Assembly: GCA_030841285.1 (NCBI GenBank)
Contig: JAVECW010000091.1
Coordinates: 1 to 39,184, forward strand
DNA length: 39,184 bases
Reading direction: 5' to 3'
Source of the DNA: Microbacteriaceae bacterium
GTDB lineage: Bacteria; Actinomycetota; Actinomycetes; Actinomycetales; Microbacteriaceae
Every line of letters starts with the position of its first letter. Position 1 is the first letter of the stretch. This document shows, piece by piece, positions 5,872 through 18,618 of this stretch. A program made the position numbers and the translations under genes. The notes beneath the pieces were generated by a model that was not told where the DNA came from, searched no databases, and saw only the letters and a program-made list of their open reading frames with translations.

Positions 5872-6630
5872 GTGAGCGCGACATCCGACTTCGAGGAGCT
5901 CGTCGCCGAGGCGGAAGCGGCCTCGGTGGACGGATGGGACTTCTCCTGGTTCGACGGTCGCGCGACTGAGGAGCGCCCGTCGTGGGGCTACAGCCGGATC
6001 CTGGCTCAGCGCATGTCCGAGGCGCACGCCGCTCTCGACATCCAGACCGGCGGCGGCGAGGTGCTCCGGACGATCCCGCAGCCGCCGAAGGTGCTTGTCG
6101 CCACCGAGTCCTGGCCCCCCAATCTCGCGCTCGCCAGGGAGAACCTCCGTTCGCTCGGATGCACGGTCGTCGAAATCGCCGACGACGCGCCCCTGCCCTT
6201 CGACGATGAAACGTTCGATCTCGTCGTCAGTCGTCACCCCACCACGAATCCCTGGGCCGAGATCGCGCGTGTGCTCGCGCCGGGCGGAACCTACCTGTCA
6301 CAGCAGGTCGGTTCGGGCACGAACCGCGAGCTCGCCGAATATCTGATGGGTCCGCAGCCCGTCAATCCGGTTTCGGATGTCGCGCGCCTGGCCGAGGGAG
6401 TGCGGTCACACGGCCTGGAGGTCCTCGATGTGCAGCAGGAGAGCCTGCGGATCGAGTTCTATGACATCGGCGCAGTCGTTCATTTCCTGCGCAAGGTCAT
6501 CTGGACGGTTCCGGGCTTCGCGGTCGACCGCTACCGGGAACGGCTTCTCGCCATGCACGAGCACATCCAGGCGCATGGCGCCTTCGTCTCCCATAGCCGC
6601 AGAGCCCTCATCGAGGCCCGCAAGCCGTAG
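5872..6630 (+). CDS. Class I SAM-dependent methyltransferase
   Basis: A 252-residue cytosolic protein predicted to transfer a methyl group from S-adenosylmethionine to an unknown acceptor. The glycine-rich SAM motif is the atypical LDIQTGGGE at 55-63, followed by the acidic strand end 'VLVATE', a 'LPFDDETFDLVVSRH' motif IV region and 'RVLAPGGTYLSQQVG', the post-motif III loop. This is the pattern of a recurrent actinobacterial 'TGGGE' methyltransferase group. GTG 5872 was chosen because GGAAGA lies about 10 nt upstream and the preceding frame looks non-coding. It lies 113 bp after the permease, and whether it is co-transcribed with the importer cannot be decided. The long C-terminal helix segment may shape the acceptor site. 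Confidence 0.8.
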   Translation: MSATSDFEELVAEAEAASVDGWDFSWFDGRATEERPSWGYSRILAQRMSEAHAALDIQTGGGEVLRTIPQPPKVLVATESWPPNLALARENLRSLGCTVVEIADDAPLPFDDETFDLVVSRHPTTNPWAEIARVLAPGGTYLSQQVGSGTNRELAEYLMGPQPVNPVSDVARLAEGVRSHGLEVLDVQQESLRIEFYDIGAVVHFLRKVIWTVPGFAVDRYRERLLAMHEHIQAHGAFVSHSRRALIEARKP

Positions 6631-6658
6631 CGAGCCGCATCCCGGTAACACGTATGGT

Positions 6659-6674
6659 GTACGGTATATCGTAT
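6659..6674. promoter_or_regulatory. GntR-type operator, copy 1 (upstream of amidohydrolase)
   Basis: The 16-mer GTACGGTATATCGTAT is a near-palindrome (TACGrTATAyCGTA). It occurs identically at 10378-10393, upstream of the amino-acid-type importer. It lies 57 bp before the amidohydrolase start, in the expected promoter zone. The GntR/FCD gene encoded in the same operon (8027) is the natural candidate binder. Confidence 0.65.
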
Positions 6675-6730
6675 CGACGGCCGGAAATGCGGCCCTCGAA
6701 ATTGCACGACTCGCATCAGGAGGAACCACG

Positions 6731-7987
6731 GTGAACGACGTACGACAGGACGAAACCGGGCTTCTCGCCGTGCGGGGTGCTCACGTCCTTGACGTCGAGT
6801 CCGGTGAGCTGTCCGACCGAAACGTCGTCGTCATCCGCGATTCGCAGGTCGTGTCCGTCGAGGCGGCCGTGCCAGCGGGTGCGCGCCTCATCGACCTGGG
6901 CGACAGCATCCTCATGCCCGGGCTGATCGACGCGCACACGCACATCCTGCTGCACGGCAACAAGGGCGCCGAAGAAGCGCGATACCAGCTCATGGAGGAG
7001 TATCCCGCGCACCGGATCGCCCACGCCGTGCAGGCGATGCGGATCGCTCTCGATAACGGCTTCACCACCATTCGTGACCTCGGTTCGGAGGGTGTCGGCT
7101 ACGCAGACGTCGCGCTCAGGGATGCGGTGGCGGAAGGTGTGATCGAGGGTCCGCGGATGCAGGTTGCCGGCCCGGCACTCTCGTCGACGGGCACGTATCC
7201 CGTGCAGCGCTATCGCCCGGACTGGGCGTTTCCTTCCGGCGTGCAAGTTGTCGACGGTGCCGATGCGTGCCGGCGTGCCGTTCGTGAGCAGATCTCCTAC
7301 GGAGCCGACTGGATCAAGGTCTACACGAATTCCGGGGCGGGCAGGCAGCTCAACGCCGACGGGTACATCGACTCCGCGCCGAACTGGACCGCGGAGGAAC
7401 TCTCGGCGATCGTCAGCGAAGCGCACTCGCGCGGGGTCAGGGTGGCGGCTCACGCCACCTCGGACATCGGACTCGACATGGCGCTTGCCGCCGGTGTCGA
7501 CTCGATCGAACATGGCTACTCGATTCGCCCGGAAGCCGCAAAGCTGATGGCGCAGCGTGGTGTCTACCTCAGCCCGACCCTGCTCGCCGCCGACTACGTG
7601 GTCGAACATCGGGCGCAGGAACGCGGTCCGATCTGGAAGTCGATCCTCGAAGTGCAGGCCCGCACTCTCCGCAACTGCCTCGACGCCGGGGTCAAGATCG
7701 CGTTCGGGACCGACGTGGGCGGCTTCCCGTGGACCGAATTCAACCAGGCCGAAGAGATGCCATACCTGGAGCGGATCGGGATGTCGGCCACCGACATCAT
7801 CCGAAGCGCGACCACCGTCGCGGCCGAGTTGATGGGACTCGCGGGCGAGGTCGGAACGCTCCGGCCGGGCGCATCCGCCGATATCATCGCAGTCAAGGGT
7901 GATCCCCGGAGCGACCTGACTCGACTCGCGGACATCGATTTTGTGATCCGCGCAGGCCAGCTGGTCCGATCGCCGAGCGCGTATTGA
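6731..7987 (+). CDS. Metal-dependent amidohydrolase (imidazolonepropionase/prolidase-like)
   Basis: Predicted to hydrolyse a C-N (amide or cyclic amide) bond in the cytosol with one or two metal ions. The 418-residue protein has the N-terminal composite beta-sandwich followed by 'MPGLIDAHTH' with the metal HxH at 69-71. It also has a conserved Lys in 'WIKVYTNSGAG', metal His residues in 'VAAHAT' and 'SIEHG', and the metal Asp in 'AFGTDVG'. This order is typical of the imidazolonepropionase-related/Xaa-Pro dipeptidase-like amidohydrolases. GTG 6731 follows AGGAGGAA at a good distance; the same frame is open back to 6377 but overlaps the methyltransferase and lacks a better start. It is the first gene of the operon with GntR, SDR and RraA, and has the shared 16-bp operator upstream. 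Confidence 0.88.
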   Translation: MNDVRQDETGLLAVRGAHVLDVESGELSDRNVVVIRDSQVVSVEAAVPAGARLIDLGDSILMPGLIDAHTHILLHGNKGAEEARYQLMEEYPAHRIAHAVQAMRIALDNGFTTIRDLGSEGVGYADVALRDAVAEGVIEGPRMQVAGPALSSTGTYPVQRYRPDWAFPSGVQVVDGADACRRAVREQISYGADWIKVYTNSGAGRQLNADGYIDSAPNWTAEELSAIVSEAHSRGVRVAAHATSDIGLDMALAAGVDSIEHGYSIRPEAAKLMAQRGVYLSPTLLAADYVVEHRAQERGPIWKSILEVQARTLRNCLDAGVKIAFGTDVGGFPWTEFNQAEEMPYLERIGMSATDIIRSATTVAAELMGLAGEVGTLRPGASADIIAVKGDPRSDLTRLADIDFVIRAGQLVRSPSAY

Positions 7988-8026
7988 TGACATCGACAGC
8001 ATGATCAGACGATTGAGAGGTGGGGC

Positions 8027-8686
8027 ATGGGCGATCTTCTAACCATTCAGCAGCGACCGGAGAGCCTGTCCGACCAGGTGTTCGCCACCATCCGTGAGGC
8101 GATCATCTCGCGAACGCTTGCACCGGGCAGTGCCGTGACGGAAGCCCAGCTCGCCAAGGACCTGGGCGTGAGTAAGACTCCGGTCCGTGAGGCATTGTTG
8201 CGCCTGCGTGAGGTTGGCCTGGTCCAGTCCATGCCCATCCGTGGCATGACGATCATCGAATCCTCACGCGAGGCTCTGATCCAGGCCTATGAATTGCGCG
8301 GCATCCTGGAATCGTCGGTTGCCAGGCTCGCCGCGCTCAAGGCGTCTGAGGATGAGATTGCCGAACTCGGGGCCATGGCAAAGCAGTCGCTCGAGTTCGC
8401 GCAGCAGCACGACGCCGCCAACTTCCGCCAGACGGATCGGCTGTTTCACGCGGCGGTCTGGCGCGCGGCGGGTAATCCCGAGCTCGAGCGCATCGCTGAG
8501 AATGCCTACCTGCTCAGCAGCGCGTTGCGTGCCATCCACGCTCTGTCGAGCAGCGACTCGATTAAATGCGCTAAGCAGCATGTCGCGATCGCCACCGCCA
8601 TCAAGGGGCGAGACGAGACAAAGGCCGCCGAGCTCGCCGCCAACCATGTGAGGGACGTACTCCAGTACTCCTTGCCATCGGCTTAA
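8027..8686 (+). CDS. GntR-family transcriptional regulator, FCD (FadR) subfamily
   Basis: A 219-residue DNA-binding regulator. The N-terminal winged helix has 'TEAQLAKDLGVSKTPVREALLRLREVGLV', the classic GntR recognition helix and wing. The C-terminal all-helical FCD domain has the spaced metal/ligand residues in 'RLFHAAVW', 'KQHVAIA' and 'AANHVRDV'. FCD regulators normally sense a small organic acid or sugar acid and act as repressors of the adjacent catabolic operon. GAGAGGTGGGG precedes ATG 8027, and the gene starts 39 bp after the amidohydrolase. The likely targets are the two identical 16-bp sites at 6659 and 10378, which would make it autoregulatory and also the regulator of the importer (inference). 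Confidence 0.9.
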   Translation: MGDLLTIQQRPESLSDQVFATIREAIISRTLAPGSAVTEAQLAKDLGVSKTPVREALLRLREVGLVQSMPIRGMTIIESSREALIQAYELRGILESSVARLAALKASEDEIAELGAMAKQSLEFAQQHDAANFRQTDRLFHAAVWRAAGNPELERIAENAYLLSSALRAIHALSSSDSIKCAKQHVAIATAIKGRDETKAAELAANHVRDVLQYSLPSA

Positions 8687-8711
8687 CACACGCACGCACC
8701 GCGCCAGTCGC

Positions 8712-8728
8712 CGCGACCTGAGGTCGCG
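8712..8728. terminator. Short hairpin in the GntR-SDR gap
   Basis: CGCGACC-tga-GGTCGCG is a perfect 7-bp stem with a 3-nt loop, 25 bp after the GntR stop in a 138-bp gap. There is no T-run, so it may only attenuate or stabilise the transcript. Confidence 0.35.
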
Positions 8729-8824
8729 CCCGGCGCCCCATACAAGCACTGGTCTCTCGAGCCCAGCGCTCGGTTTACTGCGCGCTGCTCGAGGACTATT
8801 CGGGCGCGCAACAAAGGGAGAGAG

Positions 8825-9610
8825 ATGGATCTAGGGATAACGGGTCGGGTTGCACTGGTTCTCAGTGCCGGCGGCGGACTCGGGAGTGCGATCGCCGTCG
8901 CGTTGGCCCGCGAAGGGGCAACCGTTTTCGGTTGCGGCTCTAATGCTGAGCGCCTCAAGCACACGGCCCAGCGAGTGAAAGAGGCGGGCGGAACGATGAC
9001 GCCTGTGCTTGCTGATCTCACTCAGGTGGATGCGCTCGGCGACCTCGTCACCTCCGTCAAGCAGCAGGCGGGTCCCATTTCGATCCTGGTCAACATGACC
9101 GGCGGCCCGCCACCTGGCGCGACAGCAGGCGTCGAGGTGGGCACCTGGCAACGGCACTTCGAGTCCATGGTCCTTCCGGTCTTCCGCCTCACCGACCTGG
9201 TGCTTCCGGACATGCGCGAGCAGCGCTGGGGTCGGGTGATCACGAGTACATCCTCTGGAGTCGTCGCTCCGATCCCCAACCTCGGGATCTCGAACGCGCT
9301 CCGGTCGACGCTGGTCGGTTGGTCGAAGAGCCTCTCCGCGGAGGTCGGCCGCGACGGGATCACCGCCAATGTCGTCTTGCCAGGGCGCATCGCCACCGGG
9401 CGGATCGTCAGCCTCGACAACGCCAGGGCCGAGCGCGAAGGTCGCCTGGTTGAGGATGTCGCGGCCGAAAGCGTGGGGAAGATTCCTGTCGGCCGCTACG
9501 GGGATCCTGCCGAGTACGGCGACGTCGTCGCCTTTCTCGCCAGCGAGCGAGCCTCGTACATCACCGGCTCGGTCACCCGAGTCGACGGCGGGATGATCCC
9601 GAGCATCTAG
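8825..9610 (+). CDS. SDR-family protein lacking the canonical catalytic YxxxK motif
   Basis: A 261-residue Rossmann-fold protein of the short-chain dehydrogenase/reductase superfamily. The nucleotide-binding loop is the unusual 'SAGGGLGSA' instead of TGxxxGIG. The Ser region 'ITSTSSGV' is present, but the Tyr and Lys of YxxxK are replaced: the aligned stretch reads 'NLGISNALRS', with Ile and Leu at the catalytic positions. The C-terminal 'YITGSVTRVDGGMIPSI' is normal. This matches a known ketoacyl-reductase-like SDR subgroup with an incomplete tetrad, so it may use a different chemistry or be a non-redox enzyme. AAGGGAGAGAG precedes ATG 8825. It lies between GntR and the RraA-family gene and is probably in the same regulon. 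Confidence 0.88.
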   Translation: MDLGITGRVALVLSAGGGLGSAIAVALAREGATVFGCGSNAERLKHTAQRVKEAGGTMTPVLADLTQVDALGDLVTSVKQQAGPISILVNMTGGPPPGATAGVEVGTWQRHFESMVLPVFRLTDLVLPDMREQRWGRVITSTSSGVVAPIPNLGISNALRSTLVGWSKSLSAEVGRDGITANVVLPGRIATGRIVSLDNARAEREGRLVEDVAAESVGKIPVGRYGDPAEYGDVVAFLASERASYITGSVTRVDGGMIPSI

Positions 9611-9663
9611 GGCAAACGGCTGGGGAAACCCAGCGTCTGATGAAAGAACAAGGAGTAGCACCA

Positions 9664-10335
9664 ATGCGTACAGCACAAGAGAAGAAAGACATCCGCGAGC
9701 GATACCTCGCGGTGGACACGGCGAATGTGGCCGACACCCTGGACAAGCTCGGCCTTCCCGACCAGGGGCTTGCGGCCGATTTCGTCCCGTACTCGGGGGA
9801 GCGACTGGGTGGTTGGGCGTACACCATCGCTGGTCAGACCCAGCCGTACGAGGGCACGGGCGACGCGAAGAAGATGGAGGCGTGCGCCGGCATCTCCGAG
9901 GGTGAGATCTCGGTATGGAGCGGAAACGGCGTTGGTGTCTGCTACTTCGGTGAGCTCATCGCGATCGGGATGAAGGAGCGCGGATCGGTGGGAGCGCTCG
10001 TCGATGGCGGCATCCGCGATGTGCGCTGGCTCCGCGAGCACGAGTTCCCAGTCTTCGCGCGCTACCGGACTCCTACCCAGTCCATCGGTCGGTGGAAGGT
10101 GACGTCGTGGCAGGAGCCCATCTCCATCCCCGGTGCGACCTCGACCTGGGTCGCTGTCGCCCCCGGCGACTTCGTTCTCGCGGATGAGGATGGCGCCATC
10201 GTGATCCCGGATGCCTATGTCGAGCAGGTGCTCGCCGAGGCCGAGTCGCTCACGGTGACCGAGGTCAAAGTGCGCGAAGCGCTCCGGCAGGGTCGGACCC
10301 TGGCCGAGTGCCTCGCCGAATTCGGACACGTCTAG
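9664..10335 (+). CDS. RraA-family protein (HMG/CHA aldolase or oxaloacetate-decarboxylase-like lyase)
   Basis: A 223-residue protein of the RraA/class II pyruvate aldolase fold. Family enzymes cleave 4-hydroxy-4-methyl-2-oxoglutarate-type acids or decarboxylate oxaloacetate with Mg; true RraA proteins inhibit RNase E. The active-site signature of the lyases is D-X20-R-D; here it reads E97-X20-R118-D119 ('GELIA...DGGIRD'), so the metal-site Asp is replaced by Glu. ATG 9664 has AAGGAG upstream; the in-frame ATG at 9640 has no such site. It starts 53 bp after the SDR. With an amidohydrolase and an importer in the regulon, a lyase acting on a 2-keto acid intermediate is more likely than an RNase regulator. 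Confidence 0.85.
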   Translation: MRTAQEKKDIRERYLAVDTANVADTLDKLGLPDQGLAADFVPYSGERLGGWAYTIAGQTQPYEGTGDAKKMEACAGISEGEISVWSGNGVGVCYFGELIAIGMKERGSVGALVDGGIRDVRWLREHEFPVFARYRTPTQSIGRWKVTSWQEPISIPGATSTWVAVAPGDFVLADEDGAIVIPDAYVEQVLAEAESLTVTEVKVREALRQGRTLAECLAEFGHV

Positions 10336-10377
10336 GCCACGGTCTGCCACTCGTAACGCGCAGGAAATATATGTAGC

Positions 10378-10393
10378 GTACGGTATATCGTAT
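10378..10393. promoter_or_regulatory. GntR-type operator, copy 2 (upstream of amino-acid-type importer)
   Basis: Identical over 16 nt (GTACGGTATATCGTAT) to the site at 6659-6674. It lies in the 164-bp gap between the RraA-family gene and the binding-protein gene, so the importer seems to have its own promoter under the same regulator. Confidence 0.65.
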
Positions 10394-10499: not shown

Positions 10500-11393
10500 A
10501 TGGGTTCGAGCAAAACCGTCAAAACCTTGGCACTAGCCGTGGGAACCGTCACCGCCCTGCTCCTGGCTGGATGCGCATCCACCCCCGCACCGGCGGCGAG
10601 CGCGAGTGGCAGCGCCAACGCGCTCTACAAGAGCTCGCCTGCGCTGGTGAAGATCCAGGCGGCAGGCGTCTTCAACATCGGCGTGGACACAGAGCCTCCG
10701 CTGTCGTCGATCTCGGGCGGCAAAGCCGTCGGTGTCATCCCTGATGTGCTTGCCGAGTTCGTCAAGCGCGTCGGCATGACCGTGAAGATCAATGCCGTCG
10801 CGACCCCATTCAGCAGCATGGTGCCTGAGGTCCAGAGCAACCGCATCGACACGATCGCCGCCGGCATGTACAACACGCCGGCACGCGCACAGGTCGTGAA
10901 CTTCACCGAGCCGATCGTCTACAACCCGGGCACACTCATCGTTGCCCCTGGCAACCCCAAGAAGATCAACGGGATCACCACAGCGAGCCTGCACGGTCTC
11001 ACGGTCGGAAGCTACGCGGGCACGACCCTGCTCACCGAGCTCCAGGCTCTCGCTGCAAAGGACCCATCGATCCAGGTCAAGGCGTTCACGACGGCGCCTC
11101 TGCTCGCGCTCGCCGTGTCGCAGGGCCAGGTTGACGCCGGCTACATCGACCAGGTGTCCGGCGCGTACTTCCTGAAGCAGGACCCGACCCTCAAGTACCA
11201 GGTCCTGACGAACCTGGCGGGCGCCGACCCCAAGTCTGCAACGGGCGACTGCCTCCCGGTCAACAAGAGTGACCCCCAGTTCGTGACCCTGTTCAACAAG
11301 GTCTACGACCAGATGAAGGCCGACGGTACGGCAGCGAAGATCATGACCAGCAACGGCCTCACTCCTCCGGCCAGCTTCTACAACCTCAAGTAA
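10500..11393 (+). CDS. Polar-amino-acid-type ABC transporter substrate-binding lipoprotein (family 3)
   Basis: A 297-residue lipoprotein with signal sequence and lipobox LLAGC (Cys25). The mature domain has family-3 binding-protein landmarks: 'FNIGVDTEPPLSSISGGKAVGVIPDVLAEF', 'IDTIAAGMYNTPARAQVVNFTEP', 'LTVGSYAGTT' and 'GQVDAGYIDQVSGAYF'. The usual ligands are polar amino acids or related amines. ATG 10500 follows AAGGA. It is the first gene of a three-gene importer and is followed by a strong hairpin before the permease, which fits the higher amount of binding protein these systems need. The shared operator upstream links it to the amidohydrolase operon, so the real ligand may be the amidohydrolase substrate. 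Confidence 0.9.
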   Translation: MGSSKTVKTLALAVGTVTALLLAGCASTPAPAASASGSANALYKSSPALVKIQAAGVFNIGVDTEPPLSSISGGKAVGVIPDVLAEFVKRVGMTVKINAVATPFSSMVPEVQSNRIDTIAAGMYNTPARAQVVNFTEPIVYNPGTLIVAPGNPKKINGITTASLHGLTVGSYAGTTLLTELQALAAKDPSIQVKAFTTAPLLALAVSQGQVDAGYIDQVSGAYFLKQDPTLKYQVLTNLAGADPKSATGDCLPVNKSDPQFVTLFNKVYDQMKADGTAAKIMTSNGLTPPASFYNLK

Positions 11394-11480: not shown

Positions 11481-12158
11481 GTGGGCGAGATTGCAAGTTG
11501 GCTTCCGAGTCTCCTAACGGGACTCGGGGTGACGGTCGAGCTGACCGTGTTCTCGATGGTGTTCGGGCTCGTCGTGGGACTTGTCCTCGCGACGATTCGC
11601 TTGGAGCCGCGTAACAGGTGGCTCTACATCCCGGCGACCATCTACATCGAGGTGATTCGTGGGACGCCGCTGATCCTGCAGCTCTTCTTTGCATACTTCG
11701 CCCTCCCGGCGGCCGGCATCCGTCTGGATCCGTTCATCGCTGGAGTGCTCGCGCTAGGCATCAACTACAGCGCATACCTGAGCGAGGTCTTCCGATCGAG
11801 CATCAAGGCCGTGCCCCACGGACAGTGGGAAGCAGCTTCAAGCATCGGCATGCCGTGGGTGCTGGTCATGTGGCGGATCATCCTGCCGCAGGCCGGCCGG
11901 ATCGCGCTGCCCGCCACGGGAAACTATTTCATCGCCCTCTTCAAGGACAGCGCCCTGGCGTCGACGATCTCCGTCACGGAGCTTCTCTTCAGCGGCCAGA
12001 TCCTGGCCGCTGCGAGCTTCAACTACTTTGGCATCTACGCCGTCGTTGCCGTCTTCTACCTTGCCGTCAGCTACCCATCGAGCCTTGGTCTTCGCGCACT
12101 TGAGCGCCGCCTCGAGCTGAGCAGGCGTAAGGCGAGACCAAAGCGAGTCGCGGCATGA
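11481..12158 (+). CDS. Amino acid ABC transporter permease (HisM/GlnP family)
   Basis: A 225-residue membrane subunit with the HEQRO/HisMQ pattern: 'LLTGLGVTVELTVFSMVFGLVVG' at the N terminus, 'YIEVIRGTPLILQLFF', and the EAA loop in 'GQWEAASSIGMPWVLVMWRIILPQA'. The last helix is followed by a basic tail. Only one permease gene is present, so it probably forms a homodimer. GTG 11481 has AGAAAGG upstream. It lies 87 bp after the binding-protein gene, with the strong hairpin in the gap, and 39 bp before the ATPase gene. Confidence 0.9.
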   Translation: MGEIASWLPSLLTGLGVTVELTVFSMVFGLVVGLVLATIRLEPRNRWLYIPATIYIEVIRGTPLILQLFFAYFALPAAGIRLDPFIAGVLALGINYSAYLSEVFRSSIKAVPHGQWEAASSIGMPWVLVMWRIILPQAGRIALPATGNYFIALFKDSALASTISVTELLFSGQILAAASFNYFGIYAVVAVFYLAVSYPSSLGLRALERRLELSRRKARPKRVAA

Positions 12159-12197: not shown

Positions 12198-13004
12198 ATG
12201 GTTTTCACTGTGGATGAAGCAACGAACAAGAGCCCCCTGATTCAAGCGAAGAATGTCACCAAGAGCTATGGGGATTTGCCCGTACTCCATGACTTCAGCC
12301 TGGATGTCGACCGCGGCGAGGTCGTGGTCCTGATTGGTCCGAGCGGGTCGGGAAAGACGACGTTCATCCGCACGCTCAACGGTCTTGAAACGATCGATTC
12401 AGGGCGGATCAGCATCAACGGCACTGTGCTTGCCGATTCGAAACCCCTGGACAAGGGCAAGCCGCACAAGCCGAACCATCGCAGCCTTCAGAAGGTTCGG
12501 CTGGATGTGGGGATGGTTTTCCAGCAGTTCAACCTCTTCCCTCACCTGACCGCCGCGGAAAACGTGATGGAGGCGCCGGTGTGGGTTCGCAAGATCCCGC
12601 AGAAGGATGCACGAAAGCGTGCACTCGAGCTGTTGGATCGCATGGGTCTCGCCGATCGTGCCGACCACTATCCGCACGAACTCTCGGGCGGCCAGCAGCA
12701 GCGCGTCGCGATTTCCCGTTCCCTGGCGATGGACCCTGTGGCGATCCTCTTCGACGAGGTCACCTCCGCGCTGGATCCCGAGTTGGTCGGCGAAGTCCTT
12801 CGGGCCATGCGCCAGCTGGCCGCAGACGGCATGACGATGATTGTCGTCACTCACGAGATGCAGTTTGCGCGACAAGTGGCAGACCGCGTTGTCATGATGG
12901 CGAGCGGAAGGCTGGTTGAGGCCGGCACGCCGGAGCAGATCTTCGCTTCACCGACGGACCCTCGCACCGCGAAGTTCCTGCAGAGCGTCGTTCACCCGCA
13001 GTAG
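12198..13004 (+). CDS. Amino acid ABC transporter ATP-binding protein
   Basis: A 268-residue cytosolic ATPase with Walker A GPSGSGKT at 47-54, a Q-loop near 109, LSGGQ at 162-166, Walker B ILFDE at 183-187 and the switch His at 219. 'DEVTSALDPELVGEVL' and 'THEMQFARQVADRV' are diagnostic of the GlnQ/HisP polar amino acid group. An insertion of about 15 residues near 83-98 ('KPLDKGKPHKPNHR') lies between the Walker A and Q-loop regions. The start may be ATG 12198 or GTG 12210; both have weak ribosome-binding sites. Confidence 0.9.
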   Translation: MVFTVDEATNKSPLIQAKNVTKSYGDLPVLHDFSLDVDRGEVVVLIGPSGSGKTTFIRTLNGLETIDSGRISINGTVLADSKPLDKGKPHKPNHRSLQKVRLDVGMVFQQFNLFPHLTAAENVMEAPVWVRKIPQKDARKRALELLDRMGLADRADHYPHELSGGQQQRVAISRSLAMDPVAILFDEVTSALDPELVGEVLRAMRQLAADGMTMIVVTHEMQFARQVADRVVMMASGRLVEAGTPEQIFASPTDPRTAKFLQSVVHPQ

Positions 13005-13062: not shown

Positions 13063-13106
13063 TTGGACGCGCAATCCTCGGGTGAGTGCGAGACAAAGGA
13101 GTTGAA

Positions 13107-14294
13107 ATGGGTGCCGCCAATTCCCCAGCCCTGAACGTTGCCATGGTCGGGTATGGGTTCATGGGGGCCGCCCATTCCCAGGGCTGGCGCGTCGCCCCTC
13201 GATTTTTCGACTTACCCAGGGAACCTCGCCTGTCCGTGATCGTCGGCCGCGATGCCGGCCGAGCCGCTGCCGCCGCCACGAAGTTCGGCTGGGATGAGGT
13301 CGAGACCGACTGGCGGCGCGTGATCGAGCGCGACGATATCGACCTCATCGACATCTGCTCTCCCGGTTCCAGCCACGCGGAGATTGCGATTGCGGCGCTC
13401 AATGCGGGGAAGCATGTGCTGTGCGAAAAGCCCCTTGCCAACACCGTCGCGGAGGCGGAGCTCATGGCGGAGGCGGCCGAAGTTGCGGCCCGCTCCGGCG
13501 TGTACGCCATGGTCGGCTTCAGCTATCGCCGGGTCCCAGCCATCACGTTCGCCCGGGACCTGGTCGCCCAGGGCAGGGTCGGAGACATCCGCCAGGTGCG
13601 CGCCCAGTACCTGCAGGATTGGCTGGTCGACGCACAAGGGCCGATGACCTGGCGCCTCGACAAGGAGCAGGCTGGCTCGGGATCGCTGGGCGACATCGGT
13701 GCGCACGCGATCGACGCGGTGCAGTTCATCACGGGCGAGAGGCTCGAGTCGGTCAGCGGCATCCTGCACACGTTCGTGACCGAGCGGCCGCTCCTTGGCG
13801 AGTCGGTCGGCCTCAGCGGTACGGCCTCGAGCGAGTATGGCCGGGTCACGGTCGACGATGTCGCAATGTTCACCGGGCGCCTGAGCGGTGGCGCACTCGG
13901 GTCTTTCGAGGCCACGCGGTACGCGACCGGCAGGAGGAACGCCCTGCGGCTGGAATTCAGCGGATCGGAGGGCGCGATCGCGTTCGACCTCGAGCGGATG
14001 AATGAGCTCGAGTTCTATGACGGGCGCGACGCCGCCGGTGAGCAGGGTTTCCGGCGGATCCTCGTGACCGAGCCCGAGCATCCGTACATGGCCGCGTGGT
14101 GGCCGACCGGACATGGCATCGGCTACGAACATCCGTTCTCGCACCAGGTGCGAGACCTCGTCACCGACATCGCGGAAGGCAGGCAGCCGCGGCCGTCCTT
14201 CGCAGATGGACTTCAGGTTCAGCGCGTTCTCGCGGCCGTCGAAACCAGTGCAACGACAGGAAGCGCCTGGACCACAATAGGAGGAGAAGCATGA
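13107..14294 (+). CDS. Gfo/Idh/MocA-family oxidoreductase 1 (levoglucosan-dehydrogenase-like)
   Basis: An NAD(P)-dependent sugar dehydrogenase of 395 residues. The Rossmann loop is 'VAMVGYGFMGAAHS' near residues 11-24, the Gfo/Idh catalytic 'CEKPLAN' is near 112, and the substrate-domain residues 'GSLGDIGAHAIDAVQFI' carry the conserved D-x-x-x-H. The sequence around 'QDWLVDAQGPMTWRLDK' and 'GHGIGYEHPFSHQVRDL' resembles the levoglucosan dehydrogenase/inositol dehydrogenase branch, which oxidises C3 or a ring hydroxyl; this comparison is from memory. AAGGAG precedes ATG 13107. The stop overlaps the start of the ThuA-like gene (ATGA). It begins an operon of five tightly packed genes. Confidence 0.88.
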   Translation: MGAANSPALNVAMVGYGFMGAAHSQGWRVAPRFFDLPREPRLSVIVGRDAGRAAAAATKFGWDEVETDWRRVIERDDIDLIDICSPGSSHAEIAIAALNAGKHVLCEKPLANTVAEAELMAEAAEVAARSGVYAMVGFSYRRVPAITFARDLVAQGRVGDIRQVRAQYLQDWLVDAQGPMTWRLDKEQAGSGSLGDIGAHAIDAVQFITGERLESVSGILHTFVTERPLLGESVGLSGTASSEYGRVTVDDVAMFTGRLSGGALGSFEATRYATGRRNALRLEFSGSEGAIAFDLERMNELEFYDGRDAAGEQGFRRILVTEPEHPYMAAWWPTGHGIGYEHPFSHQVRDLVTDIAEGRQPRPSFADGLQVQRVLAAVETSATTGSAWTTIGGEA

Positions 14295-15010
14295 CCGCCG
14301 CACCATCCGATTCGACCGCCACGCGTCGCGCGCTCGTCGTGCGTGGGGGGTGGGACGGCCACCAACCCGTCGAGACGACCGACCTGTTCATCCCCTTCCT
14401 CGAGGCGAACGGATTCGAGGTTCGCGTCGAGGACTCGCCGAAACCGTACGCGGATGCCGATTACCTGGGGACCGTCGACCTCATCGTCCAGACCAACACC
14501 ATGTCGACGATCGAGCCGGACGAGTTCGCCGGGCTCCGCCAGGCGATCGAGAGCGGCACAGGATTCGCCGGTTGGCACGGCGGCATCGCGGATTCGTATC
14601 GCAACACCGTGGACTACCTGCAACTCGTGGGCGGACAGTTCGCGGCGCATCCTGGCAAACGGCCTGAGGAGCGCACGGGCGAGCAGTCGGATAACTACGT
14701 CCCGTACACGGTTAATATGCTGCCCGCAGCGGCGGAGCATCCGATCACTCAGGGCATCGGAGACTTCGAGCTCGTCACCGAGCAATACTGGGTCCTGCAC
14801 GACGACCTCAACGATGTGCTCGCAACGACAACGCAGGCGGTGCGCCCGTGGGATCCTTGGCACCGGCCGGTGACATCCCCCGCGATCTGGACCAGGCAGT
14901 GGGGCAAGGGCCGGATCTTCGTGTCGACGCCGGGACACCGGATCGAGATCGTCGAGAATCCAATCGTTCGCACCATCATCGAGAGGGGACTGTTGTGGGC
15001 GGCACGCTGA
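14291..15010 (+). CDS. ThuA-like domain protein (trehalose-utilisation/3-keto-sugar type)
   Basis: A 239-residue protein of the class I glutamine-amidotransferase-like fold with ThuA features: 'ALVVRGGWDGHQPVETTDLF', 'GTVDLIVQTNTMSTIEPDEFAGLRQAIESGTGFAGWHGG', 'YRNTVDYLQLVGGQFAAHPG' and 'RIFVSTPGHR'. In Sinorhizobium ThuA works with the Gfo/Idh enzyme ThuB in trehalose use, and the family has been linked to 3-keto-glycoside turnover. Here it is flanked by two Gfo/Idh genes, with overlaps at both ends (ATGA upstream; the next GTG lies 16 bases inside its 3' end), so the same partnership is likely. Confidence 0.88.
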   Translation: MTAAPSDSTATRRALVVRGGWDGHQPVETTDLFIPFLEANGFEVRVEDSPKPYADADYLGTVDLIVQTNTMSTIEPDEFAGLRQAIESGTGFAGWHGGIADSYRNTVDYLQLVGGQFAAHPGKRPEERTGEQSDNYVPYTVNMLPAAAEHPITQGIGDFELVTEQYWVLHDDLNDVLATTTQAVRPWDPWHRPVTSPAIWTRQWGKGRIFVSTPGHRIEIVENPIVRTIIERGLLWAAR

Positions 15011-16092
15011 AGATCGGCATCGTCGGAGTCGGGAAGATCAGCGAGCAGTACTTCGCATCGTTTCCATCGCTGCCAGGTCTTGAGGTCATCGCCGTTGCCG
15101 ACCTCGATCAGGCGAGGGCGGCTGCCGTGGCCGAGGAACAGGGCATCGAGTCGATGACGGTCGATGAGCTCCTGACCGATCCGCGCATCGATGCCGTGCT
15201 CAACCTCACCATCCCGGCCGCGCACGTCGAGGTCGCGACCAAGGCGCTCGCGGCGGGAAAGCATGTGTACACCGAGAAACCACTCGCGCTCGCGCCAGAG
15301 GAGGCCGTCGACATGCTCGCGCTCTCCGAGCGCACCGGCCTGCGGGTGGGCTCGGCTCCGGATACTGTGCTCGGCACCGGAATCCAGACGGCGCGCGAGT
15401 TGCTGGATTCGGGCAGGATCGGCACCCCCGTCGGTGCAACCGCGTTCTGGGTCGCTCCGGGACACGAGCTGTGGCATCCGGCCCCGCAGTTCTATTACCA
15501 GGCGGGCGGTGGACCCCTCTTCGACATGGGTCCGTATTATGTGAGCGCCCTCGTCACGCTCCTTGGTCCCGTCGCCCGAGTGTCAGGTGCCGTCGCACGG
15601 TCAGATCGCGAGCGTGTCGTCGCGACCGGGCCGAACGCGGGCACTCCGATTACCGTGTCGGTGGACACGCACGTGACCGCCATCCTGGAGCACGCGTCCG
15701 GCGTCGCCTCAGGCCTCACCGTGAGCTTCGACGTCTGGGCCTCGCGTATCCCGAACATCGAGGTCTACGGAACAGCGGGCACGATCGCGGTGCCCGATCC
15801 CAATCGGTTCTCGGACCCGGTTGAGCTGTGGACGAAGGATGAGCCGGAGTGGCAGACGGTTCCCGTCTCCGCGGGCTACGCGGATGCGGGCCGTGGCGTT
15901 GGGCTCGCCGACCTCGCGCGCGCGATCGAGACGAATCGTCCGCATCGCGCGTCGGGTGAACTGGCCTTCCACGTACTCGAGATCATGGATGCCATCATCC
16001 GGGCAGGCAACGAGCACCGCACGATCGAGTTGGATAGCACGGTCCAGCGGCCGGAACCCGTTCCGTTCGGCTCTCAGCCACACACCTGGTAG
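14995..16092 (+). CDS. Gfo/Idh/MocA-family oxidoreductase 2
   Basis: A 365-residue NAD(P)-dependent dehydrogenase. It has 'IGIVGVGKISEQYFASF' as the dinucleotide loop, 'TEKPLAL' as the catalytic Lys motif and 'GGPLFDMGPYYVSALVTLLG' as the substrate-site strand, where the usual D-x-x-x-H reads D-x-x-x-Y. Its sequence is clearly different from the first dehydrogenase of the operon, so the pair may act on different oxidation states of one sugar, for instance forward oxidation and later reduction. GTG 14995 has AGAGGGG six bases upstream and overlaps the ThuA-like gene. The kinase follows after 16 bp. Confidence 0.88.
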   Translation: MGGTLKIGIVGVGKISEQYFASFPSLPGLEVIAVADLDQARAAAVAEEQGIESMTVDELLTDPRIDAVLNLTIPAAHVEVATKALAAGKHVYTEKPLALAPEEAVDMLALSERTGLRVGSAPDTVLGTGIQTARELLDSGRIGTPVGATAFWVAPGHELWHPAPQFYYQAGGGPLFDMGPYYVSALVTLLGPVARVSGAVARSDRERVVATGPNAGTPITVSVDTHVTAILEHASGVASGLTVSFDVWASRIPNIEVYGTAGTIAVPDPNRFSDPVELWTKDEPEWQTVPVSAGYADAGRGVGLADLARAIETNRPHRASGELAFHVLEIMDAIIRAGNEHRTIELDSTVQRPEPVPFGSQPHTW

Positions 16093-16108
16093 CAACGGAG
16101 GGCGGCCG

Positions 16109-17611
16109 ATGAGGCAACGGTATGTTCTCGGTGTCGACGCCGGTCAGACCGCCATCAAGGCGGTTCTACACGATGAGGGATTGCGCCCGATCTCTGTCGC
16201 ACGCCGCTTTAGCCCCCTCGACACCAGCGCGCCTCGACACGCGGAACGATCGCAGGTCGACCTGTGGGCCGCCGCTGCAGACGCGATCGGGGAGGTTGTG
16301 AGTACTGCCCGGATTGAACCACGCGACATCGCCGCCGTCGCAATCACCGGGCACGGCGATGGCCTCCATCTCATTGACGCCGCGGGGGCCGCTGTGGGGC
16401 CGGCGATCACGGCCGTCGACAGTCGAGCGTTCCGCGAGGTCGACGAGCTGCTCGCCGATGCCGACCGGACCCGCACCGTGCTCGAGCTTTCCGGCCAGGT
16501 GCCGACGGCCGGCTCACCAGGACCCCTGCTGAAGTGGGTAGCGAACAACCATCCCGAGCAGCTCGAGCGTGCCCACGCGATGCTGTCATGCAAGGACGTG
16601 ATTCGACTGCAGCTGACCGGGCAGATTTCAACCGACCTCTCCGACGCATCCGCCTCGTTTCTCGACACCCGAAGGGCAGAGTGGAGTTCCCGGATTCTGG
16701 ATGCCTACGGCCTCGGCGGCCTGGAGCGCCTGTTGCCGGAGTTGCAGCGCGGGGGCGACCCAGCCGGCTCGGTCCGGCGCGGGGCCGCCGAGCGGACCGG
16801 CCTCGTTGAGGGCACCCCGGTTATTGCAGGAGTCCACGACGTGCAGGCGGCCGCGATCGGGATGGGCGCGCTCATTCCCGACCGGCTCGCGCTCGTGGCG
16901 GGATCCTTCAGCACCAACGGGGTGACGACGACGCGCGACGATGTCGACCCTCGCTGGCAATCGCGCCTCTCTATCCGCCCGGACCTGCGGATCGCGATGT
17001 CGACCTCGCCGACCGCATCGCCGGCGCTCGAGTGGTTGCTCGGATTGCTCGGCATTACGGATGCCGCGCAGCGCGATGCGCTCTTCGCTGAGGCTGCGGC
17101 ACTGGATCCGCAGGAGAACGTGCCGTTCGTACTGCCCTTCTTCTATGCCTCCCCATTGGGCGCCGACGCATCCGCGATCCTTGCCGGAGTACGTGGCTGG
17201 CACTCGCGCCCGCACATCCTGCGCGGAATGCTTGAGGGCATCGCGCTCATGCACGTCTGGCACACGCAGGCGTTGGCTGAGCGGTTCGAGTGGGACGAAA
17301 CCGTCGTCCTTGGTGGCGGTCTCTCGAATTCGCCGCTCTACGTTCGGCTTGTTGCAAATGCCTTGCGCGCCCCGATCCGGGTGATCCACAACGAAGAGCC
17401 AGGTGCATTCGGTGCCGCCGCGCTCGCGGCGGTCTCGCACGGCATCTTTCCCTCCATCGAGGCAGCTCAGGAGAGGGTCGCCGGCGCCCCGGTCGTTGAG
17501 CCGACGGCCGACTCCGCGTCGTACTGGGAGGACGCCAGAGCGTCCCTCGGCACTCTCGGATCAGCGCTTGATCCGTGGTGGACGGCGCACCGCACAGAGG
17601 CGCGACTATGA
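16109..17611 (+). CDS. FGGY-family carbohydrate kinase (L-xylulose/erythritol-kinase-like)
   Basis: A 500-residue ATP-dependent sugar kinase. The N-terminal phosphate loop is 'VLGVDAGQTAIKAVL', the sugar-site strand 'AITGHGDGLHLIDAAG', and the catalytic base Asp244 lies in 'GVHDVQAAA'. The ATP-site 'VVLGGGLSNSPLYVRLVANAL' and 'PGAFGAAALAA' are intact. The layout, with 'FVLPFFYASPLGADASAILAG', recalls LyxK/EryA-type kinases rather than glycerol kinase. ATG 16109 follows GGAGGGCGG. The frame is open upstream but covers the end of the previous gene. The stop overlaps the PfkB start (ATGA), so the two kinases are coupled. Confidence 0.88.
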   Translation: MRQRYVLGVDAGQTAIKAVLHDEGLRPISVARRFSPLDTSAPRHAERSQVDLWAAAADAIGEVVSTARIEPRDIAAVAITGHGDGLHLIDAAGAAVGPAITAVDSRAFREVDELLADADRTRTVLELSGQVPTAGSPGPLLKWVANNHPEQLERAHAMLSCKDVIRLQLTGQISTDLSDASASFLDTRRAEWSSRILDAYGLGGLERLLPELQRGGDPAGSVRRGAAERTGLVEGTPVIAGVHDVQAAAIGMGALIPDRLALVAGSFSTNGVTTTRDDVDPRWQSRLSIRPDLRIAMSTSPTASPALEWLLGLLGITDAAQRDALFAEAAALDPQENVPFVLPFFYASPLGADASAILAGVRGWHSRPHILRGMLEGIALMHVWHTQALAERFEWDETVVLGGGLSNSPLYVRLVANALRAPIRVIHNEEPGAFGAAALAAVSHGIFPSIEAAQERVAGAPVVEPTADSASYWEDARASLGTLGSALDPWWTAHRTEARL

Positions 17612-18618
17612 ATGGGATTGTCACCCTGACGCCGTCCGCTGCGATCGATCACACCTACCTCCTGTCTGAGCTCGTCCTTGGCGAAGTCAATCGTGCGCAC
17701 GCCATGCATTCGGAGTTGAGCGGCAAGGGCGTCAACGTCGGCCATGCGATCGCACTCGCGGGGCATCCAGTGACCGCCGTGCTTGCACTCGGCGAGGATG
17801 ACCTTGCCCGTGCCGGACACTCGACGTCAGGACTGCGCTTGCGCGCAGTTGGCGTCCCTGGCCGAACCAGGATCAACACCACGATCCTCGATGGGCACGG
17901 GCAAACCACCAAGGTCAACGAGTCGCCACATCCCCTCACCGACGACCACTGGCGTGAGTTGTGCCGGGCGACCCTGGATGAGATCGAGCGACTCGAGGCG
18001 GATTGGCTCGTGTTGTGCGGCAGTGTTCCCACGCGCGCGGGCTCTGGTGAGTTGGTGTCGTTCACCGAACTCCTGCGGGATGCCGCAGCGCTCGGAGCAC
18101 GAGTCGCACTCGACACGAGCGGCGAGGCGCTCGACCGGGCGATCCACGATTTTGGCGCGGTCACCCTCATCAAGCCGAATACCCACGAACTCGCAGCGCT
18201 GGTGCGCCGAGAACTCCGCACCTTCGCCGACGTGATCGACGCCGCGTCGGAACTCCGTCGACACGGAGTCGACTCTGTCTTCGTGAGCATGGGGGAGGAC
18301 GGTGCGCTCGTCGTGGCCGAGGAAGGAACCTGGTTCGCGCGCGCGGACGCCGACGTGGTCGCCAATTCGGCCGGGGCGGGGGATGCGTCCCTCGCTGGAT
18401 TCCTCGTCGGCGAGAGTGTGCACCGTGCGACTGGGGACGCGTCTGAGTCAGCGTTGGCGGGAGCCCTTGCACGTGCGGCATCCTGGGGTGCGCTGGCGGT
18501 TGGGCAACCAACGACCCTGCTTGCGTCACTGGACGGCGCACCGCAGGCAACAGTGGTGCGCGATCCGGATCCAGCGACGCGACTGCGCGATCCGGCCCGC
18601 TCACCGGGGTCGTCTTAG
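17608..18618 (+). CDS. PfkB-family kinase (1-phosphofructokinase/tagatose-6-phosphate-kinase-like)
   Basis: A 336-residue kinase of the FruK/LacC branch, which adds a second phosphate to a ketose phosphate. Seen are 'SGKGVNVGHAIALAG' at 38-52, 'IKPNTHEL' near 188-195 and the anion-hole/catalytic-base motif GAGD with Asp259 ('NSAGAGDASLAGF'). The early 'TLTPSAAIDHTY' is a FruK/LacC start signature. It is translationally coupled to the FGGY kinase. Its 3' end overlaps the convergent SDR gene by 4 bp. A combined FGGY then PfkB route would give a ketose bisphosphate suitable for the LacD-type aldolase at 24120, though that gene is in another operon. Confidence 0.88.
   Translation: MNGIVTLTPSAAIDHTYLLSELVLGEVNRAHAMHSELSGKGVNVGHAIALAGHPVTAVLALGEDDLARAGHSTSGLRLRAVGVPGRTRINTTILDGHGQTTKVNESPHPLTDDHWRELCRATLDEIERLEADWLVLCGSVPTRAGSGELVSFTELLRDAAALGARVALDTSGEALDRAIHDFGAVTLIKPNTHELAALVRRELRTFADVIDAASELRRHGVDSVFVSMGEDGALVVAEEGTWFARADADVVANSAGAGDASLAGFLVGESVHRATGDASESALAGALARAASWGALAVGQPTTLLASLDGAPQATVVRDPDPATRLRDPARSPGSS

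Follow-up and report, generated by a model that had tools for sequence, protein, structure and literature searches.

One predicted GntR operator at the two promoters of an amidohydrolase and importer gene cassette in Microbacteriaceae

The window analysed here is a stretch of 39,184 nucleotides from a Microbacteriaceae genome, and it contains a run of genes that encode an amidohydrolase, a GntR-family regulator with an FCD domain, an SDR-family dehydrogenase, an RraA/HMG-aldolase-like enzyme and the SBP, permease and ATPase of an importer (Table 1). The gene families were assigned by Pfam and NCBIfam profiles. The nearest solved relatives of the amidohydrolase are the Zn-dependent arginine carboxypeptidase Cc2672 and prolidase-like or ochratoxinase-like hydrolases, and its score against the profile XaaProDiPepCaul (NF051886), 308.6 bits, lies under the curated cut-off of 500. 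In the RraA-like protein, R118-D119 is invariant across the orthologues and probably corresponds to the catalytic pair Arg-123/Asp-124 of the HMG/CHA aldolase of P. putida F1. The match of this protein to 3noj begins at 93 vs. 98, which fits such an equivalence as read from the start of the match rather than from a one-by-one alignment of the residues. Because gntR starts 39 bases past the amidohydrolase gene, it is probably co-transcribed with that gene and self-regulated. Between gntR and the SDR gene lies a gap of 138 bases (8687-8824) that is well conserved in three species and in which GC-rich hairpins are possible. A conserved RNA structure in this gap was rejected because no compensatory base change was present, and no Rfam family was found in the window.

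Table 1. Features of the cassette and its promoters, with positions in the window unless a locus handle is given.
Feature	Position	Strand	Basis or context
Third 7-base unit, TATGGTG	6653..6659	+	In phase with operator copy 1
Putative operator copy 1	6659..6674 (dyad 6660-6673, TACGGTA/TATCGTA)	+	Upstream of the amidohydrolase-GntR operon
Amidohydrolase (Amidohydro_1)	6731..7987	+	Profile match and solved relatives
GntR-family regulator with FCD domain, likely binder	8027..8686	+	Profiles, orthologue alignment, motif in relatives
SDR-family dehydrogenase	8825..9610	+	Profile matches
RraA/HMG-aldolase-like enzyme (R118-D119)	9664..10335	+	Profile matches
Putative operator copy 2	10378..10393 (dyad 10379-10392)	+	Upstream of the importer operon; identical in three species
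SBP, polar-amino-acid (family 3) type	10500..11393	+	Profile matches
ABC permease, polar-amino-acid type	11481..12158	+	Profile matches
ABC ATPase, polar-amino-acid type, last conserved cassette gene	12198..13004	+	Profile matches, cassette comparison
Loci with in-phase 7-base units	Window 6653-6673; L025 about 1465-1510, 6273-6310, 7173-7210; L027 6498-6546; L034 about 9430-9475		

According to the first-pass annotation of this DNA, a 16-mer without mismatches precedes two transcription units and occurs nowhere else in the window. Both statements hold: two exact copies of GTACGGTATATCGTAT lie at the positions given in Table 1, and a search that allowed up to three mismatches returned no third match across the 39-kb window. 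In dinucleotide shuffles of the window the chance expectation is 0.02, and two copies were reached in 0 of 100 shuffles. Both copies are intergenic, the first between the genes at 5872-6630 and 6731 and the second between the genes at 9664-10335 and 10500; the distance from the end of the copy to the start codon is 56 bases for the amidohydrolase gene (GTG) and 106 bases for the SBP gene (ATG). A copy was also looked for in the 138-base gap downstream of gntR, and none was found there. The core of the 16-mer spans 14 bases and forms an imperfect dyad in which one pair is mismatched. In the genome of the organism itself (2,568,863 bases searched, about 91% complete), this core, TACGGTATATCGTA, occurs in the same two places only, and the sole additional place within two mismatches of it is C68:9549. 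The degenerate dyad TAYSRTATAYSRTA, with at most one mismatch, is found in this genome at the two sites and at 6653-6666 only, the latter being the third-best genomic site and sharing 7 bases with the first copy.

Two further MAGs labelled Microbacteriaceae carry the seven genes in the same order; G054 belongs to the same genus as the window and G237 to a different one. The cassette proteins of these MAGs are about 88-98% identical to those of the window, the other genes of the window are not shared, and the neighbouring genes are absent beside the cassette in the stretches of the relatives that were read. The amidohydrolase and the ATPase are therefore taken as the two ends of the cassette. 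The methyltransferase gene (5872-6630) and the upstream spermidine-type transporter, neither of which stands beside the cassette in G237, were rejected as members. The region after the cassette, 13086-18618, holds a separate run of sugar-type genes (Gfo/Idh/MocA dehydrogenases, a kinase and a PfkB kinase), and the first of these is levoglucosan-dehydrogenase-like with a score under the cut-off of that model. A search of genome contigs with RraA returned only the G054 and G237 relatives, and searches of the genus and the family around the relatives yielded no further close GntR. Because the seven genes travel as one unit, the co-regulation of importer and enzymes that had been proposed from the shared 16-mer is supported.

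The first-pass annotation had suggested footprinting the two promoters in relatives, and the site is kept in both of the relatives that keep the cluster. On the importer side, the 14-mer core is identical in all three species. The G054 contig starts inside the amidohydrolase gene, and the comparison of the amidohydrolase promoter is that of the window with G237, where the site is TACCATATATGATA (dyad TACCATA/TATGATA). This site is clearly changed; position 4 of each half is altered symmetrically, and the dyad symmetry is largely kept. The 23-base block that contains the site is the best-conserved block of this promoter, with 19 of 23 bases identical vs. 39 of 83 elsewhere (Fisher p = 0.002). 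In pattern searches of 300 genomes of the family and 396 of the order, the motif was seen solely where the cassette occurs.

The regulator belongs to the FCD (FadR) subfamily of the GntR superfamily, with scores above the cut-offs for the GntR winged HTH at its N terminus (PF00392, 57.6 bits against 27) and for the FCD domain at its C terminus (PF07729, 77.5 bits against 24.3). Its winged-HTH region is nearly invariant among the three orthologues, in which D137, H141, H185 and H207 are also invariant; by analogy with FCD structures, these four residues are candidate metal ligands of the effector pocket. Eight distant relatives of this GntR, 40-47% identical to it, come from five genomes that belong to the same phylum but to other genera or families. 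We built a symmetric half-site matrix from the Microbacteriaceae sites only, which comprise three distinct sites. A matrix site lies at most 200 bases upstream of every one of the eight distant GntR genes, and among all positions of the 5-20 kb loci it ranks first in six and third in two; none of 200 permuted matrices equalled this result. For comparison, nine plasmid-borne FCD regulators that are more remote (33-38%) were taken as controls; a rank-1 site was present in three and absent in six of them. Therefore, the motif is not generic to FCD promoters. These results tie it to the clade of this regulator and argue for autoregulation. The regulator lies inside an operon preceded by the site, and the motif recurs upstream of its eight homologues, as expected of a local autoregulated catabolic regulon. 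The earlier proposal that the GntR/FCD gene between the two copies encodes the likely binder is thus well supported by computation.

From these sequence comparisons, we consider it very probable that the FCD-type GntR uses the 16-mer as its operator. The protein is predicted to bind the dyad as a dimer at both promoters, most likely as a repressor that an effector releases, and would in this way coordinate uptake and breakdown. The first promoter would drive the amidohydrolase gene and gntR, with transcription probably reading on across the 138-base gap into the SDR and RraA genes, and the second would drive the SBP, permease and ATPase genes. Because of the analogy with characterised catabolic FCD regulators, repression is the most likely role, although no consensus sigma-70 promoter against which to place the operator was seen near either copy. 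The effector would be a small carboxylate-type compound, either the imported compound or an intermediate. The expected outcome is a coordinated and self-limiting induction, with one switch probably controlling a small nutrient-breakdown pathway and its importer together. Such a circuit would belong to the known and ordinary class of autoregulated catabolic regulons, and the grammar of its operator is mildly interesting.

At first sight, an AT-rich word in a GC-rich genome, with TAnnnT-like words and at a plausible distance from a start codon, could also be a core-promoter element shared by the two promoters, such as a -10 region read by a sigma factor. We consider this unlikely. A core promoter element would recur widely, whereas the genome holds only two copies, both in the cassette; moreover, the element has dyad symmetry, and its motif tracks a single regulator clade from family to family. 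The operator may nevertheless overlap a -10 box, as the operator of Atu1419 does. The 16-mer could also be a real operator that is read by another regulator encoded elsewhere, since the genome has some two dozen further candidate GntR genes and GTATAC-like cores are common to FCD regulators (PMC4494728). The chance of this is small, because the motif stands upstream of all eight distant homologues of this particular GntR, most of the FCD controls lack it, and the conserved cassette carries this GntR as its regulator. Duplication can leave intergenic repeats behind, and the two promoters also resemble each other upstream of the site, being 77% identical over about 31 bases, but a chance repeat or a duplication relic without regulatory function is highly improbable in view of the chance expectation in the window and of a dyad that is conserved across genera despite diverged flanks.

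The predicted GntR operator can be compared with those of known regulators. Atu1419, a VanR-group FCD GntR of Agrobacterium fabrum, binds copies of ATGTATACAT at its own and a second promoter, and a change of the G of GTATAC in both halves abolished binding (PMC7797058). The regulator of the cassette matches the Atu1419 structure (PDB 6z74) with an E of 2e-16, and in both cases short palindromes with a GTATA core stand in identical form at the operon of an FCD-type GntR and at another catabolic promoter. However, the palindrome of Atu1419 is perfect and shorter, occurs in three copies and serves the pathway of hydroxycinnamic acids, and one half of the operator described here has GTATAT where the family consensus has GTATAC. 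The operator consensus of the FCD (FadR) subfamily is NyGTM-N0-1-KACNy (PMC4494728); compared with it, GGTATATC has GTA in one half and ATA in the other, and the GT..AC core is present on one side only. The clade of this GntR was not identified among the FadR groups in the passages of that source that were consulted. NanR of E. coli is an FCD GntR whose tandem GGTATA units are bound cooperatively by successive dimers (PMC8012715). GGTATA is also present in the core of the operator here, and there is a weak match to the NanR profile NF003011. In contrast to the spaced GGTATA direct repeats of NanR, however, two 7-base half-sites make up a dyad core here, and with about 13 residues ahead of its GntR domain the protein lacks the 32-residue N-terminal extension of NanR. 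An assignment as a NanR-type regulator was rejected because of the dyad and a score of 64.5 bits vs. a cut-off of 260. The best NCBIfam profile is of the PhnR type (TIGR03338, phosphonate utilisation); this assignment was also rejected, with 95.7 vs. a curated cut-off of 271.5 bits and a cassette without phosphonate genes.

The first-pass annotation held that the importer delivers the substrate of an amidohydrolase, SDR and RraA pathway, and that this combination is undescribed. Close homologues of the RraA-like protein on plasmids (57-66%) form a distinct set, and every one of them adjoins an SDR gene; their neighbours include a polysaccharide deacetylase, an aspartate dehydrogenase and, in Azospirillum, an amidase. 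In Deinococcus, the neighbours are a DUF885 protein, an aminopeptidase and a peptide importer, and the Rhizobium homologues of the SDR (about 60%) adjoin RraA together with either an amidohydrolase and an amidase or an aminotransferase and an amino-acid importer. These neighbourhoods point to a shared theme, in which an amide or peptide-like bond would be hydrolysed and the product would then undergo SDR and RraA chemistry, and they support the proposed pathway in outline. The substrate is probably an amide- or peptide-linked compound, and its delivery to the amidohydrolase by the importer is a reasonable inference. In the papers searched, no described pathway with this gene combination was found, which is weak evidence of novelty. 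However, SDR and RraA are widespread beside amidases, peptidases and amidohydrolases, and the cassette is therefore not a unique route but one version of an uncharacterised module that recurs. In this cassette, the amidohydrolase, SDR and RraA are tied to one importer and one regulator, and this delimits a small regulon that can be tested; identifying the substrate would give an annotation to the recurrent SDR+RraA module seen in Actinobacteria, Alphaproteobacteria and Deinococcus. The SDR+RraA pair (8825-10335 in the window; L018-L024, L045 and L046) recurs in Alphaproteobacteria and Deinococcus with various importers.

In most relatives of the regulator, further half-site-like 7-base units lie next to the core, strictly in 7-base phase with it. 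When the core is left aside, the in-phase class ranks first among the seven classes in 7 of the 8 promoters (under uniform ranks, p about 9e-5; p = 0.002 without the two L025 promoters), in a sample that is small and in which some loci share ancestry. The amidohydrolase site of the window has one extra unit (Table 1), and the importer site has no convincing extra unit. We tentatively suggest, with considerable doubt, that this FCD-GntR clade uses an iterated operator, which would consist of a core dyad with half-sites of the TAYSRTA type and of further units in strict 7-base phase, so that dimers could stack side by side and promoters would be graded by the number of units; this grammar would be NanR-like and yet distinct. 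If so, the enzyme operon would have three units and the importer two. For the FadR subfamily, PMC4494728 describes a palindrome with weaker half-site boxes 7-12 nt from the centre in 13 orthologous groups, whereas several units continue in strict 7-base phase in the relatives analysed here. Because extra boxes are known for FadR-type regulators and tandem units for NanR, the phasing is an extension of known behaviour, and it provides a simple case in which the stacking of FCD regulators on DNA can be tested. Two paralogous GntR genes lie about 10 kb apart in G859, and its stretch L025 has at least two more strong sites (1480-1493 and 7181-7201), which suggests a wider regulon there.
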